From a virus: a DNA stretch of 43,689 nucleotides. The stretch's first letter is position 1. Each line of letters starts with the position of its first letter. The stretch is taken from IMG/VR virus record IMGVR_UViG_3300035156_000356, positions 1-43,689 of that record; one strand, 5' to 3'. The notes under the pieces are model-generated. The model had not been told where the DNA came from. It did no database searches and worked only from the letters and a program-made list of their open reading frames with translations. Below are positions 974 through 37,134 of the stretch, piece by piece. Both the position numbers and the translations under genes were made by a program.

Positions 974-1108
974 AGCCCCAATTTGAGGGGCTTCTCACGA
1001 CATCTCGTGAGGTCTCAAAAACACATGAAAGCCGTTGCTTTGTAGGGTTTTGCCCGCGAGATGACGTCTCGCTATGTCTCACTGCCGCTCACAACAGCTT
1101 GCCCAGTT

Positions 1109-1149
1109 TGGGGGTATTTTGGGGGTACGCCAATCCGCGCGTGGGGGTA
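1109..1149 (+). repeat. three TGGGGGTA direct repeats upstream of the integrase
   Basis: The octamer TGGGGGTA occurs at 1109-1116, 1120-1127 and 1142-1149, all in the same orientation, between the tRNA gene and the integrase start codon. Short direct repeats beside a tyrosine-recombinase gene commonly act as arm-type binding sites for the integrase, so this is a candidate attP arm. The repeats also lie where the integrase promoter should be, which would allow autoregulation. Both roles are inferred. Confidence 0.5.
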
Positions 1150-1153
1150 TCGG

Positions 1154-2407
1154 GTGCTGACCGATATCCAGTGCAAGACGGCCGAGAAGCGAGCGGCTCC
1201 ATACAAGCTTGCCGACGGGCAGGGGTTGTTCCTGCTGGTTACGACGTCCGGTTATCGCTCGTGGCGCATGAAGTACCGGTTCGAGAAGAAGGAAAAGCTG
1301 CTCACCTTCGGCCCGTATCCGCAGATCGGGCTAAAGGAGGTGCGTCGGATGGCAGAGGATGCTCGACGCGTTCTGAGGGCCGGGCTGGACCCGGCGACGG
1401 CCGGAAAGTCGCTGTCGGCGAACGTGGATCTCTCGCGTCGCTTCGAGACGATTGCCCGCGAGTGGCATGCGCTTCAATCTTCGATCTGGTCCGCGAAGTA
1501 CGCGGAGGATGTTCTGCGCAGTTTGGAGGACTATGTTTTTCCGACAGTCGGATCATTGGATATAGCGGCGATCCGATCGGACCAGGTGCTCACGATCGTC
1601 CGCGCGATCGAGGCCAGGCCGGCGGTCGAGACGGCGAGACGCGTGCGACAGCGGATCTCGGCGATATTCAGCTACGCCATTGCCGACAGCAAAGCGACCA
1701 GCGACCCGGCGGCCGTGATCGTCGGCGCCTTGCAGCCATTGATCAAGGGGCGCCAGCCTGCCTTGCTGACGATCGAGGAGGCTCGGGCGCTTCTGATCGC
1801 GGCCGAGGATTCGATCGCCCATCCGATCACAAAGCTGATGTCGCGCTTCATCGCGTTGACGGCGGTTCGGCCGGGCGTCGTGCGCTTCCTCCCTTGGACC
1901 GAGCTGCTGGACCTCGACGGTCCCGCTCCGCTTTGGCACGTCCCCGCCGAGCGCATGAAACTGATCGTCGAGCGCAAGCAGAACGACCGGTTCGACTTCC
2001 TTGTACCGCTCGCACGTCAAGCAGTCGAAGTGTTGACGGTCGCGCGGACGTTCAGCGCCAAGAGCAAGGTCGTTTTTCCAAGCGAACGGAACGTCAACCG
2101 ACCCATGAGCGAGAACGCTGTCGGTTATCTTTACAACCGTTTGCCTGCGTATCGCGGCCGTCATGTGCCGCATGGCTGGCGGTCAACCTTCTCGACGCTG
2201 ATGAACGGACGGGCGCAGGACATGGATCGCCCTGCCGACCGGGCCATTATCGATTTGATGCTGGCGCATCTGCCGAGCGGGGTGGAGAGCAAATACAATC
2301 GCGCGGCCTATATGCCGCGCCGTCGAGCGCTGGCCCAGGAATGGGCGGACGTGCTGCTGGACGGTTTACGGCCGGCATCGTCGCTACTGGAGGGCAGGCG
2401 CCGCTAG
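1154..2407 (+). CDS. int: P4/P2-type tyrosine integrase
   Basis: The protein is a site-specific tyrosine recombinase of the DUF4102/P4-integrase family. It has the usual N-terminal arm-binding segment (YKLADGQGLFLLV, then YRSWRMKYRF and TFGPYPQIGLKEVR) and a C-terminal catalytic domain. With the GTG at 1154 as residue 1, the catalytic residues are R239, H340-G-W-R343, H372 and the nucleophile Y386 (AAYMPRRR). The reading frame is open upstream to 1061, but that extension runs through the TGGGGGTA repeats and lacks family similarity. The family's N-terminus (LTDIQCKTA) begins right after the GTG, so 1154 was chosen. The neighbouring tRNA-Tyr is the expected integration target. The protein has 417 residues, a normal length for this family. 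Confidence 0.93.
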   Translation: MLTDIQCKTAEKRAAPYKLADGQGLFLLVTTSGYRSWRMKYRFEKKEKLLTFGPYPQIGLKEVRRMAEDARRVLRAGLDPATAGKSLSANVDLSRRFETIAREWHALQSSIWSAKYAEDVLRSLEDYVFPTVGSLDIAAIRSDQVLTIVRAIEARPAVETARRVRQRISAIFSYAIADSKATSDPAAVIVGALQPLIKGRQPALLTIEEARALLIAAEDSIAHPITKLMSRFIALTAVRPGVVRFLPWTELLDLDGPAPLWHVPAERMKLIVERKQNDRFDFLVPLARQAVEVLTVARTFSAKSKVVFPSERNVNRPMSENAVGYLYNRLPAYRGRHVPHGWRSTFSTLMNGRAQDMDRPADRAIIDLMLAHLPSGVESKYNRAAYMPRRRALAQEWADVLLDGLRPASSLLEGRRR

Positions 2408-3128: not shown

Positions 3129-3633
3129 CGGGTAGTATCAAAGGGGAATGATGAACGCCTTCGGCGTGCGCAATTTGAAGGGTTTAAGGCAGCTGCCGTT
3201 GCGACCGCGACAAGCGGACGGTCTAGCCATGTTCTCGGACGGTGCAGCTTCGCCGCCCCGGTGCTCTCCGGGGAGAGCAGGCGAATTCGGCAGCGCGCGA
3301 GCCGCGACCTCATGTCCGGGCGAGATCGCCTCTATGGGGCCAGGAGCGGTGCCAGATGGCCAGCTCGCGAAGTTTCTTGGCCACAGACGGCACCTACCGA
3401 GAAATACCCCTCAAGCTGCATCAATCCGCATCACTCCTCCGCGGCTCTTAGGGCCTAAAGAACCGCCCGCGTGGCCTAGTTTTTCCGAGCCTTCGGAGGG
3501 CGGATGAAGGTGCATCAAAAGCGACACGAAAAGCGGGCAGGCGAGGCGGGGGGAAAAGCGCGCGATTTGGGGTCGCAACGCTGGCCAATCGAGGGGGGTG
3601 GCACCCCGCCGCGGCCTGGGGCATGGTCGCACG
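3129..3633. other. 505-bp stretch without a supportable gene
   Basis: Several open frames cross this stretch on both strands, but none has a good start signal, codon bias or recognisable composition. It contains a GC-rich hairpin (CCCCGG-N6-CCGGGG, 3256-3273) without a U-tract. A second, smaller inverted repeat (GGGGT-GGC-ACCCC) lies around 3595-3607. It may be decayed coding sequence or a regulatory/att-proximal spacer. Confidence 0.5.
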
Positions 3634-3936
3634 ATGCCGCGCGGAACCCACCACGTCGAGATCGGCCAGCTGGACCATGACGGCCAGTCCTATGGCCTGC
3701 TGCGCGAGGCAGGTGGACGCTGGCAGCTGAACGTACCCCGCCGCGCCCGCCGCCTAGTCGGCCAGCGCGTCCGGATCGAAGGCATCCGCGTGGGGTTCAG
3801 TGAACTGAGCGTCTCCTCGATCGAGGCGCTGGTGCCAGCCGACAGGTCCGCAACGACATCGAAGCGGTTGCGCGCGGCGATCGTCCCGGCGGTGATCGTC
3901 TTCCTCGCGATCCTGGCTTGGTATCTGCTGGCATAG
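3634..3936 (+). CDS. DUF5818-type small protein with a C-terminal membrane anchor
   Basis: The protein has 100 residues. The N-terminal 60 or so residues form a compact beta-rich region (THHVEIGQLDHDGQSYGLL, RRARRLVGQRVRIEGIRVGF) that I recognise as the sphingomonad DUF5818 family. A single hydrophobic helix (AAIVPAVIVFLAILAWYLLA) ends the protein, so it is probably a tail-anchored or membrane-tethered protein. The frame continues upstream to a GTG at 3598, but family members start with MPRGTHH, which fixes the ATG at 3634. The function is unknown. These proteins are common in sphingomonads and need not belong to the phage. Confidence 0.7.
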   Translation: MPRGTHHVEIGQLDHDGQSYGLLREAGGRWQLNVPRRARRLVGQRVRIEGIRVGFSELSVSSIEALVPADRSATTSKRLRAAIVPAVIVFLAILAWYLLA

Positions 3937-3940
3937 CGTT

Positions 3941-3960
3941 GGAACGGCTTGAACCGTTCC
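3941..3960. repeat. perfect inverted repeat GGAACGG-N6-CCGTTCC
   Basis: The two 7-bp arms are separated by CTTGAA. The repeat follows the DUF5818 stop codon and overlaps the left half of the SOS box described next. A second palindrome, TATATG-TTCT-CATATA (3962-3977), follows directly. The first may act as a terminator stem or as an operator. The tight packing with the SOS box favours regulation. Confidence 0.5.
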
Positions 3961-3979
3961 TTATATGTTCTCATATAGT
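3949..3979 (+). promoter_or_regulatory. LexA-type SOS box and overlapping promoter
   Basis: A perfect GTTC-N7-GTTC direct repeat lies at 3956-3970. This is the established LexA operator of alphaproteobacteria. It sits between a candidate -35 TTGAAC (3949-3954) and a candidate -10 TATAGT (3974-3979, five of six consensus bases; the 19-bp spacer is slightly long). LexA bound here would block the promoter, so the two small genes that follow should be induced by DNA damage. The sequence match is direct; regulation is inferred. Confidence 0.72.
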
Positions 3980-3982
3980 CCG

Positions 3983-4342
3983 ATGCGGATGCCGATCGAG
4001 TCGCTGACGATGAAGGCTCTGATGGTGCTGGAGGAGACCCAATATCTCGTCGGCAAGGTGACGATCGAGCCGTCGCCCGGCCTGCGCTTGGCCCTCGCCT
4101 TCCTGTTCGCGGTCAGTAACGGCGATCGATCGGTGTTCGATGAATTCTGGCGGGGCATGCTCAACCAGCCATGCGAACCCGGCCCGCAAAGGCTCTTGGC
4201 GACCCAGAATGCGAACACACTCATGAACCGTGTATGCCTGGCAGTCGGTGTCGCGCGAACGCCGGCGCTGATGGCCGCGGGTGCCAAGGCCGCCGAGCCC
4301 AAATTGAAGGATGCAGCGCCATGCAGAGGGCCGGGGATGTGA
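3983..4342 (+). CDS. SOS-controlled small protein, candidate antirepressor
   Basis: I do not recognise the family. With the ATG at 3983 the protein has 119 residues. Starts at 3989 or 4010 are also possible, and the predicted transcription start near 3986 favours 3989. The ATG at 3965 lies inside a palindrome and is unlikely. The sequence is mostly helical with several Met and Leu residues (MKALMVLEETQYLVGKVTIEP, LRLALAFLFAVSNGDRSVFDEFW) and a conserved-looking LMNRVCLAVGVARTPAL segment. There is no signal peptide. A perfect SOS box lies directly upstream, and a GTGA overlap joins it to the next gene. In coliphage 186 the SOS-controlled gene encodes the antirepressor Tum, which suggests an analogous role here by context only. 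Confidence 0.65.
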   Translation: MRMPIESLTMKALMVLEETQYLVGKVTIEPSPGLRLALAFLFAVSNGDRSVFDEFWRGMLNQPCEPGPQRLLATQNANTLMNRVCLAVGVARTPALMAAGAKAAEPKLKDAAPCRGPGM

Positions 4343-4587
4343 AACGCTACCGGCTGATGATGCTGCAACGCCCCGTCGCACCCTGGCGCCCGACCCTGGC
4401 CGATGCGCACGCGGACGCCATCGCGGCCGGCATGGCCGATTGGGATCCGGATCGACACGCGCTGTTCGTGACCGTCCCCGCCCGGATCGCGGAGAGCCTC
4501 GGCCCGCCCGTCGACGCGCGCCCGAGCCCGCCCGAGCCGCAAAAGCGATCGTTCAAACGCCGGCGGCCGGCTTCACGCGCTCTTTGA
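4339..4587 (+). CDS. small basic-tailed protein, second gene of the SOS-boxed pair
   Basis: The GTG at 4339 overlaps the stop of the preceding gene (GTGA), which indicates translational coupling. An ATG at 4321 is the alternative start. The 82-residue product begins KRYRLMMLQRPVAPWRPTLADAHADAIAAG, continues with a DRHALFVTVPARI strand, and ends in a basic Pro-rich tail (PPEPQKRSFKRRRPASRAL). I do not recognise the family, although short proteins of this build are frequent in sphingomonads. Its last 35 bp overlap the end of the convergent portal gene. Confidence 0.6.
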   Translation: MKRYRLMMLQRPVAPWRPTLADAHADAIAAGMADWDPDRHALFVTVPARIAESLGPPVDARPSPPEPQKRSFKRRRPASRAL

Positions 4588-5614
4588 ACGCGACCGCCGG
4601 GAGCCCCAGCCAGTCGTTGATCTGCTTGAAGGTCGGCTGCATCGGTTCAATTTCCAGCTCATAGAACATGTCGGTTGCCTTCACGGGGTCGCCCAGCCCG
4701 CCGGCATTGGTCGGGATGATGCCAAGCAGCGCCGGCGGCGTCCGGTGCGCGGCCAGGATATCGTCGCGCGTGGTGTTCTTGATCCCGAGAAACTCATCCT
4801 TCGCCCCCACCTCGGCGATCGGGATCAGCTTGACCCCGCCATCCTTGCCGCCGGCTTGGTGGATCAGCAGGTTACGGAAATTGCCCGGACCCTTGGAATT
4901 CTTCAACGCTGCCTTGATGCTGTCGATCGCGCCTTCCGCGAAATCGCCGGTGGTGTGCAGGATGAACCCGGCGTGCGAGCCGTTGAGGTAATAGCGACGC
5001 CGGAACAACGTCGCATTCTCGTTGAGCAGGGCCGACTGAAGCGCCGAAACATATTCCGGCAGGCCATAGATCTCCTGATTGATGTCGGGCTGCATCAGCT
5101 GGAACATGCTGCCCGGCCGGAACGGCGTCTCCACCATCCCGCCAGGTACGAAGAAGAATTCGCCCGCCACCACGCCGCGCCGCGTGAATTTCGCCAGCGA
5201 ATGATCCAGCCGGAGCGGCATCCCGAGCAGGTTGTCGCGCCGCTCGACATACGCGTTGCCGAAGATCAGGAAGTCCTGGACCACTTTCTCGAACGTCGCC
5301 CGGCTCAGCCAGGGCGACGGCACGAACGACGCCACCAGCAGCTTGCGCTTCAGGATGATCGCGCTCGAATGATGCGGCGACACCCGGTAGGTCCGCGCCA
5401 GGCCGTCCATCGACAGCGGTGGCTCGTACCAGCGGCCATTATGCGGACATTCGATCAGGTCGAGCAACTCGCGCCGGTTCAGCACCGGCTCCGGATCCCC
5501 GAACGTGAACGCCTCCACCGCCTCGCGCCGCCCACCCGCGACGATAGCGCCCTGCGCGGCCGACACCGCCTCGGTCCTGGACATCCGCCGGGCTGCGGCC
5601 GATCGCTTGCTCAT
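4553..5614 (-). CDS. Q: phage portal protein (P2 gpQ family)
   Basis: The portal forms the dodecameric ring at the capsid vertex through which DNA is packaged and ejected. The product has 353 residues (P2 Q has 344). Family hallmarks are visible: WYEPPLSMDGLARTYRVSPHHSSAI near the N-terminus, DFLIFGNAYVERRDN, PDINQEIYGLPEYVSALQSALLNENATLFRRRYYLNGSHAGFIL, and HRTPPALLGIIPTNAGGLGDP near the end. The frame is open upstream to 5986, but the ATG at 5612-5614 overlaps the terminase stop as ATGA and starts the family-typical sequence. The gene follows the terminase on the minus strand, as in P2. Confidence 0.95.
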   Translation of the reverse strand: MSKRSAAARRMSRTEAVSAAQGAIVAGGRREAVEAFTFGDPEPVLNRRELLDLIECPHNGRWYEPPLSMDGLARTYRVSPHHSSAIILKRKLLVASFVPSPWLSRATFEKVVQDFLIFGNAYVERRDNLLGMPLRLDHSLAKFTRRGVVAGEFFFVPGGMVETPFRPGSMFQLMQPDINQEIYGLPEYVSALQSALLNENATLFRRRYYLNGSHAGFILHTTGDFAEGAIDSIKAALKNSKGPGNFRNLLIHQAGGKDGGVKLIPIAEVGAKDEFLGIKNTTRDDILAAHRTPPALLGIIPTNAGGLGDPVKATDMFYELEIEPMQPTFKQINDWLGLPAVAFKERVKPAAGV

Positions 5615-25295: not shown

Positions 25296-26126
25296 TTGTC
25301 TATCGACCTTTTCCCCGTCGCCCCCACGCGACCCGTCGCCGGCTATATCGGCGGCAAGCGCAACCTCGCCAAGCGCATCTGCGCGATCCTCGATCGCACG
25401 CCGCACACCAGCTACGCCGAACCCTTCGTCGGCATGGGCGGCATCTTCCTGCGCCGCACGCGCCGGCCGCGCGCCGAGGCGATCAACGATATCAGCGGTG
25501 ACGTGTCCGGCCTGTTCCGCTGTCTTGCCGAGCATTATCCTTACATGATCGACATGCTGCGCTTCCGTGTCGCCGGCCGCGCCGAATTTGAACGCCTGCT
25601 CGGGCAGGATCCGGAACGGCTGACCGATCTGCAACGCGCCTGCCGGTTCCTGTATTTGCAGCGGCTGGCGTTCGGCGGGCGGGTGGCCGGGCGGACCTAC
25701 GGCGTCGATGCGAGCAACCCGGCGCGGTTCGACGTCGGCAAGCTCGAACCCATGCTCGCCGATCTGCATGACCGGCTCCAGGGCGTGACGATCGAGCGTC
25801 TGCCCTATGGCGACTTCATTCGCCGATATGACCGCGACGGCGCGCTCTTCTACCTCGATCCGCCCTACTGGCAGTGCGAAGGGGACTATGGCCCTGGGGT
25901 CTTCGCACCCGACGACTTCGCCCGCCTGGCGGCGCAGCTGCGCGCGATCAAGGGCGGCTTCCTGTTGTCGATCAACGACAATCCGGACGTGCGGACGATC
26001 TTCGCCGGCTTCTGCATGGTCCCGGTGCCGACCATCTACACGGTTGGTTCCGGCATGCCGACCAAGGCCGCCGAGCTGCTGATCTCGAACGAGAGGAGCA
26101 TCCTGTTGGAAGCGGCAAACGATTAG
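25296..26126 (+). CDS. D12-class adenine-specific DNA methyltransferase (Dam-like), orphan
   Basis: The 276-residue enzyme transfers a methyl group from S-adenosylmethionine to adenine N6 in DNA. The cofactor motif AEPFVGMGGIF and the catalytic DPPYW (in FYLDPPYWQCEGDYG) are intact. A YIGGKRNLAKRI N-terminus is typical of the class. No ATG exists before the cofactor motif, so a TTG at 25296 with an upstream AGGA is the likely start. No endonuclease partner is nearby. It may protect phage DNA from host restriction or modulate gene expression; the target site is unknown. Confidence 0.92.
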   Translation: MSIDLFPVAPTRPVAGYIGGKRNLAKRICAILDRTPHTSYAEPFVGMGGIFLRRTRRPRAEAINDISGDVSGLFRCLAEHYPYMIDMLRFRVAGRAEFERLLGQDPERLTDLQRACRFLYLQRLAFGGRVAGRTYGVDASNPARFDVGKLEPMLADLHDRLQGVTIERLPYGDFIRRYDRDGALFYLDPPYWQCEGDYGPGVFAPDDFARLAAQLRAIKGGFLLSINDNPDVRTIFAGFCMVPVPTIYTVGSGMPTKAAELLISNERSILLEAAND

Positions 26127-26279: not shown

Positions 26280-26651
26280 TCACTCCTCCGACTTCCACGC
26301 GAACAGCACAAGCTGTGCGCTGATATGCAGTACGGCTGCGATGCCTGTACCGAACAGCGCTCTTAGCACAGGTTCTCGTACAACGTCCGCTGTAGCAAAA
26401 GGAACCACAAGGATCGTTAACAGGCATGCCGCACCGACCGTGTTCAAAAAGTTCGCTAGGAGCTTCAGTCGCTCATTGAACCGCTTGGCCGCACGCCGGC
26501 GCCGTATATCGAGATCCTCCGCCTGATGTCCCTGTATGAGCGGCTCAGCCCCACCGATCGTACGGCGCAGCTTGATCAAGTTGATAAGCGCAACGATCGC
26601 CAGCGTTAAGGCGATGCCGTTCAATGTGTCTATGATTGGGGACCATATCAT
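26280..26651 (-). CDS. 123-residue membrane protein, middle gene of the RHH operon
   Basis: Three hydrophobic segments are predicted: about 9-27 (LNGIALTLAIVALINLI), 66-86 (LANFLNTVGAACLLTILVV) and 99-118 (FGTGIAAVLHISAQLVLFAW). A strongly basic cytoplasmic loop (DIRRRRAAKRFNERLK) lies between the first two. The ATG overlaps the RHH gene stop (ATGA), so the two are translationally coupled. I do not recognise the family. A membrane role such as superinfection exclusion or an abortive-infection effector is a guess based on its context. Confidence 0.7.
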   Translation of the reverse strand: MIWSPIIDTLNGIALTLAIVALINLIKLRRTIGGAEPLIQGHQAEDLDIRRRRAAKRFNERLKLLANFLNTVGAACLLTILVVPFATADVVREPVLRALFGTGIAAVLHISAQLVLFAWKSEE

Positions 26652-26824
26652 AGGTCCAAACCCTTGCGCGCCAGTCGGCGTAGCGCCTCCGGTCGGGACG
26701 GCGCGTCCGGCTGTTGCGCGATCCAGCTATCAATGGCGGCGAGCATGCGGCGCTCCACCCTGACAGTGACAGCTTCGGTGTCCGCCTTTGGACGTCCTAC
26801 CTTTTTGACGGCAACAATTGACAT
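26648..26824 (-). CDS. 58-residue ribbon-helix-helix protein
   Basis: The peptide has a basic N-terminus (VKKVGRPKADTE), then the RHH pattern: a beta strand (AVTVRVERRM) followed by two helices (LAAIDSWIAQQPDA and SRPEALRRLARKGL). The SRPEALRRL segment is typical of CopG/Arc-type repressors and antitoxins. It is the first gene of a reverse operon with two membrane proteins and probably autoregulates it. The predicted -10 lies only six bases before the ATG. Confidence 0.8.
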   Translation of the reverse strand: MSIVAVKKVGRPKADTEAVTVRVERRMLAAIDSWIAQQPDAPSRPEALRRLARKGLDL

Positions 26825-26909: not shown

Positions 26910-27128
26910 ATGGCCCAAGCTGAGCGCAGCCATAGCATAGTCTTGCCCGAATGGCAGGACGCGGACCTCCTCCGCGACACGCCCGGTTGTGCGATCGGGT
27001 GCGCACGCTGCACCATCCGCTGCGCGGTGGTGACGGGCGCCCGCGACGAACTGATCGAACGCCTGCACCGCGCCGAGCTGGCCGTGCTTGCGGTCCGACC
27101 GCTTCGCATCCCGTCGCGGGTGCATTGA
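26910..27128 (+). CDS. 72-residue cysteine-containing protein of unknown function
   Basis: The product contains CAIGCARCTIRC (about residues 27-38), a possible metal-binding cluster, followed by a helix (GARDELIERLHRAELAVLAV). The family is unknown. It lies in the cargo island just after the hairpin and one base before the next gene, with which it is probably cotranscribed. Confidence 0.5.
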   Translation: MAQAERSHSIVLPEWQDADLLRDTPGCAIGCARCTIRCAVVTGARDELIERLHRAELAVLAVRPLRIPSRVH

Positions 27129-33862: not shown

Positions 33863-34875
33863 TGGGGCAGACGTCGTTCGTCGCCAACGTCGCCGCCTTC
33901 CGCGTCCTGCTCGACGGCACCGACCTGACCGCCCGCTTCGCCCCGCGCCTGGTGTCATTGACGCTGACCGAGAAACGCGGCGACGAAGCCGATCAGCTCG
34001 ACGTCGTCATCGACGACAGCGACGGGCGCATGGCGCTCCCGCGCGCCGGCGCGCGACTGTCGGTCGCGCTCGGCTGGGCGAGCGGCAGTCAGGTGCAACC
34101 CGGGTTGATCGACAAGGGCAGCTTTGTCGTCGACGAGGTCGCCCATGATGGCCCGCCCGACCGCATCACGATCCGCGCGCGCGCCGCCGACTTCACCAGC
34201 GCCGGCCGCGCACGCCGCGAACAGAGCTGGCGCGCCACCACGCTCGGCGCGATCGTCACCGAAATCGCATAGCGCCAGGCGCTCGAGCCGCATGTCGCGC
34301 CGGCGCTGGCGTCGATCCCGGTGCCGTATCTGGCGCAAAGCCGCGAAGGCGATTTGGCGCTACTCAAGCGGCTCGGCCGGGAGCATGACGCCGTGGCCAC
34401 GATCAAGGCGGGGCGGCTGATCTTCGCGGCGATCGGCGCGGGCGTCACCGCGTCCGGCCGGACGATCCCCACCGCCACCTTCCGCCGACAGGACGGCGAC
34501 CAGCACAGCTACACCGTCGAAAAGCGCGACGAGGCCAGCGGAGTCACCGCCGACTGGCACGATCGCGCCACTGCGAAAAAGCAGAGCGTGACCGCAGGAA
34601 CGGAGGGCAAGACACGCAAGCTGGCCAAGGTCTATGCGAGCGAGGATGCCGCCAAGAAAGCCGCCTCGGCCGAGCTGGGCCGCGCCGCCCGCGCGCCGCG
34701 CAAGCTGACTCTTGCGCCGGCGCTCGGCCGGCCGGATCTGCACCCCGAACAGCGCCTGAAGGTGACGGGATTCAAGAGCGAGATCGATGCCGCCTCATGG
34801 CTAATCGCGGAGGTGACGCATACGCTGGACGGCAACGGCGGGTTGAGCAGCACGCTTTCGCTGGAAGCCGCCTGA
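33862..34875 (+). pseudogene. D: late control/tail protein D interrupted by an amber codon
   Basis: D is a gp27-like hub protein needed for tail assembly. The reading frame is intact from 33862 to 34875 except for a single in-frame TAG at 34270-34272 (codon 137), in ...TEIA-stop-RQALEPHVAP. The upstream part holds the D N-terminus (FRVLLDGTDLTARFAPRLVSLTLTEKRGDEADQLDVVIDDSDG). The downstream part holds the remainder (PYLAQSREGDLALLKRLGREHDAVATIKAGRLIF, LHPEQRLKVTGFKSEIDAASWLIAEVTHTLDG). Together they make the 337-residue length of the family. One base change from CAG, GAG or AAG would explain it. A sequencing error or amber suppression is also possible. Confidence 0.88.
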
Positions 34876-35151
34876 TCACGCCGCTGTGCGGTGCAACGCC
34901 GCCGCCGCCATCTCCGGTTCGCGATCGATCACCACCAGATAGGACCGGACCGCCGGGGGCGGCATCGTCCTGCCGATCTCATACTGCCGGATATTGGCGA
35001 CCGGGATCCCGTATCGCTCGGCGAACGCATCCTGCGAAAGCCCCAGCCGGTTGCGCAGCTTGCGGATCGTCCGCCCCATCTGCGCCCGCTCGACCGCCGC
35101 CGCGTCGACGGCGAAGTCCTCCGGATCGTTCGGATCGGCCTCAATGGCCAT
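34876..35151 (-). CDS. XRE-type HTH antitoxin partner of BrnT
   Basis: The 91-residue protein has an N-terminal acidic region and an HTH at about 27-80 (MGRTIRKLRNRLGLSQDAFAERYGIPVANIRQYEIGRTMPP) of the HigA/XRE type. Its start lies inside the end of the BrnT gene, so the two are translationally coupled. It neutralises the toxin and represses the operon by inference. Usual BrnA antitoxins have a ribbon-helix-helix fold, so this is a different partner. Its stop abuts the convergent D stop without a gap (TGATCA). A GTG at 35169 is an alternative start. Confidence 0.85.
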   Translation of the reverse strand: MAIEADPNDPEDFAVDAAAVERAQMGRTIRKLRNRLGLSQDAFAERYGIPVANIRQYEIGRTMPPPAVRSYLVVIDREPEMAAAALHRTAA

Positions 35152-35410
35152 GATAGGCTCTTTCTTCACCAGCGTTGCTCCTGCGCACCGAAATGAACCG
35201 GACGACCGCACCGCGCATGACATGCACGCCGGTGTGAAGCCGCCCGTTCACCAGACCCACCACCTTGTAACGATCCTCGCCATCCTCGGGGCGGACGGTC
35301 GCGATCACCAGATGATCCGCATCGTCGAAGATCGCCGCGCCCAGCGCCAGCGGGACGCCGTGGCGCTCCCGGTTGATCGCATCCTTGGCGGGGTCGAACT
35401 CGATCTGCAT
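35141..35410 (-). CDS. brnT: BrnT-family toxin (RelE-like ribonuclease)
   Basis: The 89-residue protein starts with the family signature QIEFDPAKDAINRERHGV and contains GEDRYKVVGLVNGRL and a C-terminal RFISVRRSNAGEERAY. These are the usual BrnT landmarks. BrnT toxins are RNases with a RelE-like fold that stop translation. An ATG at 35410 was preferred over GTG 35416 because it starts the family consensus. An operator and promoter directly upstream suggest standard autoregulation. It would stabilise the prophage or act in phage defence. Confidence 0.9.
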   Translation of the reverse strand: MQIEFDPAKDAINRERHGVPLALGAAIFDDADHLVIATVRPEDGEDRYKVVGLVNGRLHTGVHVMRGAVVRFISVRRSNAGEERAYHGH

Positions 35411-35416
35411 GGCCAC

Positions 35417-36471: not shown

Positions 36472-37134
36472 CTAGATCTTGCGACCCACCCAGATCACGC
36501 GGCCCACCACGAACATCTCGTCGTCGGCGAGCATCTCGTCCGACACCAGCGGGTTGTCCGACATCAACTTCCACCCACCGCCGCCGCGCCGCCGCACCCG
36601 CTTGATCGCGCCCAGTTCGCCAAAGCCGATCGCCCAGATCCGGTCCTGGTCGATGATGCGCGTGTCGGAACGGTCGATCAGCACGATGTCGCCGTCCATT
36701 ACCGTCGGCTGCATCGAGTCTCCCCGGCCGCGCGCGAAGAACAGCAACTCCACCGGCGATTTCGTGACCGATTCCAGCCACGCGCGGGGGAACGGGATCG
36801 ACGTCATGTCGGCCCCTTCGATCACGATCGTGCCGCCGCCCATCCCATATTGAATGTCCATTTCCGGGATCATGAGCAGGTCAAGCTGCTCGGCGACCGT
36901 CTCTGGAGTTGGCGCCGGTGCAGCTCCCAAGCTAGGATCCTGGGTCTCGCCGGTAAGATATGCGGGGGTAGTTTCGAGTTCCCGCGCCACCCGGTGGAGA
37001 TGCGACGATCCTTGCGAAATGCCGCTCACGATCTTTGCGATAGCGCCTTGGGTGACACCTACACGACGAGCCAGTTCGGATTGGGAAAGCCCCTTTACCG
37101 CCAGCCGCTCCCGCACTCGTTCCGCCACGATCAT
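36472..37134 (-). CDS. S24-family phage repressor (CI-like)
   Basis: The 220-residue protein has an N-terminal HTH (LAVKGLSQSELARRVGVTQGAIAKIVSG, about 11-40) and a C-terminal S24 domain with the dyad S140 (RGDSMQPT) and K178 (GAIKRV). It holds the prophage in lysogeny by binding operators between itself and the divergent Cro-like gene. The expected Ala-Gly or Cys-Gly cleavage site is not seen; the corresponding region reads IPEMDIQYGMGGG. It may therefore not be cleaved in the SOS response like lambda CI. Confidence 0.9.
   Translation of the reverse strand: MIVAERVRERLAVKGLSQSELARRVGVTQGAIAKIVSGISQGSSHLHRVARELETTPAYLTGETQDPSLGAAPAPTPETVAEQLDLLMIPEMDIQYGMGGGTIVIEGADMTSIPFPRAWLESVTKSPVELLFFARGRGDSMQPTVMDGDIVLIDRSDTRIIDQDRIWAIGFGELGAIKRVRRRGGGGWKLMSDNPLVSDEMLADDEMFVVGRVIWVGRKI

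Follow-up and report, generated by a model that had tools for sequence, protein, structure and literature searches.

Why does a temperate phage keep two small genes behind a LexA box, and do their products act on the phage's own repressor? The question is raised by a 43,689-base viral record that we analyzed over its full length (the window), which carries P2-like head genes, a tRNA-Tyr, an integrase, and, at the right, an S24 repressor. Judging from relatives of the locus and from plasmid homologues of the first cassette gene (ORF1), the host is probably a sphingomonad. A sequence-only reading had proposed that ORF1 and its neighbor ORF2 form an SOS-driven antirepressor comparable to Tum of coliphage 186 and had placed them next to the repressor. 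That placement does not fit the map: in the prophage, the cassette and the repressor are ~32 kb apart, and the cassette adjoins the putative cos (position 3540) and the portal gene, with which it is convergent (Table 1). The cos-like motif, which we take to resemble the P2 cos sequence, is present beyond the portal gene in 37 of 70 related loci.

Table 1. Features of the window discussed in the text
Feature	Position	Strand	Remarks
tRNA-Tyr	888-973
Integrase	1061-2407		Adjoins tRNA-Tyr
Putative P2-type cos core, GGCGAGGCGGGGGGAAAAG	3540-3558	+	Based on the same motif in related loci
Perfect 7-bp inverted repeat, GGAACGG-CTTGAA-CCGTTCC	3941-3960	+	Overlaps the -35 region and the first LexA half-site
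Plausible promoter	3949-3977	+	TTGAAC (3949-3954), 17-nt spacer, CATATA (3972-3977); read from sequence
LexA (SOS) box GTTC-N7-GTTC, GTTCCTTATATGTTC	3956-3970	+	Ahead of ORF1; box consensus from PMC9578287 (Table 1) and PMC12907096
ORF1, 119 aa, new family, predicted five-helix protein	3983-4342	+	Start probably ATG 3983, 12 nt past the box, where homologues align
ORF2, 88 aa, new family	4321-4587	+	Overlaps ORF1
P2-like portal gene	4586-5614	-	Based on relatives and annotated P2-like phage portals
Short gene with Cys motif, TPGCAIGCARCTIRCAV	26910-27128	+	No LexA box
S24-type CI-like repressor	36472-37134	-	Ser140, Lys178; cleavage loop IQYGMGGG

Both genes proved to be real and coupled (the ORF1/ORF2 overlap is ATGA in three relatives), and they are as unrecognized as first described, with no family match for either in Pfam, PHROGs, or NCBIfam. 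Pairwise substitution rates show purifying selection, with dN of ~0.14 to 0.49 against dS of >1 for ORF1 and dN of ~0.17 to 0.32 against dS of 0.77 to 1.16 for ORF2; since dN was below dS in every comparison, both are taken to encode proteins. Prophage homologues of both genes were found (L001/L081/L085, L002/L083, and L003/L082/L084), those of ORF2 being confined, besides the window, to prophages L083, L084, and L085. ORF1 homologues also occur on plasmids of S. changnyeongensis (L086), S. paeninsulae (L087), and S. parapaucimobilis (L088), and further ones in L010, L034, L063, and, weakly, L073. The partner of ORF1 varies between ORF2, a Zn-ribbon-like gene (L073), and a three-gene run (L010 and L063). 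In L063 (6914-7345), the ORF1-like gene, located behind a LexA-boxed small gene, is broken by a frameshift. Searches of viral contigs, genome contigs, and phage records with ORF1 alone, of genome contigs with the ORF1 alignment, and of phages and plasmids with ORF2 gave no relatives. One match of ORF1 to PDB sequences (E = 0.71) was ignored, and a Bacillus plasmid match (E = 0.06) was judged to be due to chance. A structure model of ORF1 built from four sequences, a small number that calls for caution, has five helices (pLDDT 90, pTM 0.83) and matched no structure in PDB or BFVD (best E values of 2.1 and 0.74, respectively); the ORF2 model was poor and unusable.

The motif GTTC-N7-GTTC is the alphaproteobacterial LexA box, established in Caulobacter (PMC9578287, PMC12907096). 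The perfect box claimed ahead of ORF1 is present and is the only one in the window. It has only eight fixed bases, however, and 0.99 boxes per window are expected in shuffled sequence, so that a single box is not significant in itself and could be a chance match ahead of genes that have no SOS control. Because one box per window is the chance level, relatives were used to judge it. A perfect box stands exactly 12 nt before the start codon in six of six cases (the window, L081, L083, L082, L086, and L087), including two plasmid homologues in which ORF1 is only ~30 to 43% identical. L034 retains a one-mismatch relic, GTTGCCCGTATGTTC, in the same place, 12 nt before a GTG start (offset determined by eye), and in L088, L010, and L063 a box stands ahead of a small gene farther upstream in the run. 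It is this recurrence of box and spacing before ORF1 homologues, seen alongside a regional enrichment of boxes beside cos (below), that gives the box its significance. A chance match is thus very improbable, and the comparisons indicate that the cassette is almost certainly under LexA control.

The promoter is less clear. The box had been described as lying between a -35 and a -10 element, and TTGAAC and CATATA do bracket it; a consensus scan found no strong sigma-70 site, and this promoter fell below its threshold, leaving it no more than plausible. If the -10 element is at CATATA, transcription would start at or near the ATG, and the ORF1 mRNA is probably leaderless or nearly so. The inverted repeat that overlaps this region is partly kept in L082 and L083 and is missing in L081 (by eye).

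Regional enrichment was examined in 80 related loci found in viral contigs via the portal gene. The cos-side region was defined as the 5 kb that follow the portal stop, and the reversed box pattern served as a control. A total of 45 LexA boxes were found in 254 kb of cos-side sequence, compared to 4 with the control, and 7 in the remaining 684 kb, compared to 4 with the control, which corresponds to an ~17-fold enrichment. Most of the cos-side boxes (38 of 45) share the strand and orientation of that in the window. Computed P values were 3e-39 for enrichment (Poisson) and 2e-6 for orientation (binomial), and true significance is lower because the loci are related and not independent. Of the 37 loci in which the cos motif was found, 21 have a box between it and the portal gene, mostly 80 to 420 bases from the motif. 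These counts show, at the level of sequence, that sphingomonad P2-like phages maintain an SOS slot between cos and portal.

The contents of this slot vary among ORF1/ORF2, a short protein with a Zn-ribbon-like protein, a HIRAN gene (Pfam), and umuDC, a variability that fits accessory SOS genes. On the cos side of L035 and L042, a LexA-boxed umuDC-like pair occupies the same slot as ORF1/ORF2. A second LexA-boxed cassette, found in L016, L019, L023, L031, L045, L051, L052, and L057, encodes a protein of ~55 aa (NNREFLREIRxGxxDDGPYMIGALA) and often, after it, a Zn-ribbon-like protein; neither has a family. A HIRAN gene lies under a LexA box beside cos in L069, L072, and L040, and a HIRAN-like gene directly or nearly follows the S24 repressor in L143, L104, L123, L119, L126, and L122.

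The S24 repressor of the window had been described as having Ser140 and Lys178 and as lacking a visible Ala/Cys-Gly site. Both residues are present, in a protein with an HTH and an S24 domain, and the cleavage region contains no such dipeptide (Table 1). Ser and Lys are kept in all 20 aligned S24 relatives (some of these loci being duplicates), and the loop follows the pattern (Y/F/L/I)(G/A)(M/L)-G-(G/A), with G018 deviating; Ala-Gly occurs only in G003. This shared pattern makes the missing Ala/Cys-Gly a trait of the whole subfamily. The window repressor may use another scissile bond, e.g., Gly/Ala-Met/Leu, or may not be cleaved. Another type of S24 repressor is directly preceded by GTTCGCAATGCGTTC-like sites (G033, 3689-3703; G010, 4233-4247; G022, 34615-34629), which could be operators resembling the LexA pattern. 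On the minus strand of the window (34876-35416), a small HTH gene and a gene that we take to be BrnT-like are ~95% identical in G001 despite a differing neighbor repressor and possibly form a toxin-antitoxin pair.

If SOS-made ORF1, ORF2, or both bound a non-self-cleaving S24 repressor and so induced the prophage, as Tum does, a LexA box ahead of the cassette and a repressor loop without Ala/Cys-Gly would be in keeping with this. Precedents exist in coliphage 186 and Gifsy, one of them acting on heteroimmune repressors (PMC7708051, PMC3121763). Cos-side boxes were also found in 12 of 14 S24 phages compared to 4 of 12 HTH-only phages (P = 0.014; P = 0.06 in a strict count that dropped GC-rich and distant boxes), and their being commoner with S24 repressors keeps the antirepressor idea alive. 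A specific antirepressor should, however, change with its target. Instead, the same cassette is found alongside three repressors that differ widely (identities of 28% and 36%; one has no S24 domain): it accompanies an S24 repressor 28% identical to that of the window in G003 and an HTH-only repressor with no peptidase domain in G001. G024 and G025 have S24 repressors that are 92% identical, yet on the cos side G025 carries the other type of LexA-boxed cassette while no LexA box was found anywhere in the G024 record. With the ORF1/ORF2 pair present beside both S24 and HTH-only repressors, and ORF1 also present on plasmids, occurrence does not follow the repressor, which weakens the antirepressor reading. 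Of the Tum-like proposal, the LexA box, the unrecognized proteins, and the noncanonical repressor loop stand, while the cassette's persistence across unlike repressors and the presence of ORF1 on plasmids speak against the role itself, and we consider an antirepressor of this kind rather unlikely.

G001 also already owns a LexA-boxed gene facing its repressor. A box lies ~80 to 170 nt beyond the repressor stop in 11 of 14 HTH-only records but in none of 15 S24 records (P = 1e-5), and it faces an opposite-strand gene of ~95 residues with a Cys-x3-Cys-x2-Cys-x3-Cys motif. A wider scan recovered 45 loci with this Cys-rich gene (L156 to L200, match near 1501-1790); the gene is also seen in L109 (5076-5381). 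A perfect box precedes the aligned start by 29 to 49 nt in 41 of the 45, and a box with one mismatch is found in the other 4. An HTH-only repressor is on the opposite strand in 44 of the 45 loci, with 43 ending inside the Cys-rich gene, and no S24 motif was found among those 44 opposing repressors. Most of the Cys motif precedes the overlap, so the gene does not mirror the repressor. We dropped the alternative in which the box beside the repressor controls downstream moron genes, as those genes share nothing and the opposite strand has one conserved gene. The Cys-rich gene is a better Tum analogue than ORF1/ORF2 and a candidate SOS switch; inactivation of HTH-only repressors during SOS could operate via the protein, antisense transcription, or both. 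That G001 carries this switch together with the ORF1/ORF2 cassette suggests that the two have different jobs. Both place a LexA box directly upstream of a small gene in the same phage group, but the Cys-rich gene is located at the repressor, overlaps the repressor 3' end, has the Cys motif, is unrelated to ORF1/ORF2, and is missing beside S24 repressors, including that of the window. A short gene in the window that carries this Cys motif (Table 1) lacks a LexA box and was not accepted as the switch. It adjoins a divergent ribbon-helix-helix-like gene (~26650-26824, minus strand; by eye) downstream of a DNA methyltransferase gene (25296-26123), and similar copies are found in G002 and G035.

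Control of the cassette appears to resemble that of operons in other temperate phages, in which LexA also governs small genes. Tum of coliphage 186, itself P2-like, is made from LexA-controlled p95 (PMC7708051); the Gifsy operons (gfoA/gftA) begin with dinI and encode small antirepressors, and in PSP3 and Fels-2 tum is divided, giving a two-gene form as here (PMC3121763). Gifsy also has a terminator-like palindrome ahead of the LexA box, as does the cassette (PMC3121763, PMC7708051). The cassette differs in that no match to a Tum, DinI, or GfoA-type family was detected, in its box being the alphaproteobacterial direct repeat, and in being kept across different repressors, with ORF1 also on plasmids. 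Neither searches of Pfam, PHROGs, and NCBIfam nor the ORF1 fold search revealed any resemblance to DinI or to a known antirepressor, and on these comparisons membership among the antirepressors is not supported.

DinI, PsiB, and UmuDC-type genes are SOS accessory genes of mobile elements. The cassette resembles them in its LexA control (which not every member has) and in being accessory and exchangeable, and umuDC-like genes share its slot (L035 and L042); in comparison, ORF1 and ORF2 are new families. We lean, by little, toward a LexA-repressed two-gene operon with an accessory SOS role rather than an obligatory antirepressor of the phage's CI. We infer LexA binding, promoter, transcript, and function as follows. 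In the lysogen, host LexA on the box between -35 and -10 would shut the cassette promoter, which RecA-stimulated LexA cleavage would open upon DNA damage. ORF1 and ORF2 would then be made early from one transcript, probably leaderless, by coupled translation. ORF1 would be a small five-helix effector, probably protein binding, with ORF2 as a phage-specific partner, and the two would most likely tune host DNA damage or replication functions for the induced phage, like DinI, PsiB, and UmuDC-type genes. As a counterpoint to this accessory role, the S24 bias of cos-side boxes is also predicted by the antirepressor view. LexA phage operons, moreover, often encode both an SOS modulator and an antirepressor (Gifsy, PSP3, and Fels-2; PMC3121763), so both roles can coexist.

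Two other functions might be considered. ORF1, as a new five-helix fold, and ORF2 may form a new kind of SOS-made antirepressor or SOS-circuit modulator for several dissimilar repressors, which seems unlikely but, if true, would explain why the cassette persists when repressors are exchanged and moves with plasmids. The cassette might also encode an SOS-triggered effector against the host or competitors, i.e., a growth inhibitor or antidefense protein made only in damaged cells. Occurrence on both phages and plasmids, small size, and variable partners are compatible with such an effector, but no toxin or antidefense family matched in Pfam, PHROGs, or NCBIfam, and the prophage pair is arranged unlike a typical toxin-antitoxin locus; we regard it as unlikely.

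These results define two previously undescribed protein families under SOS control and, in the P2-like phages of sphingomonads, an SOS slot next to cos. They also point to two induction designs, one with S24 repressors and one in which HTH-only repressors are faced by a LexA-boxed Cys-rich gene. How alphaproteobacterial phages with nonpeptidase repressors sense DNA damage is now directly testable.
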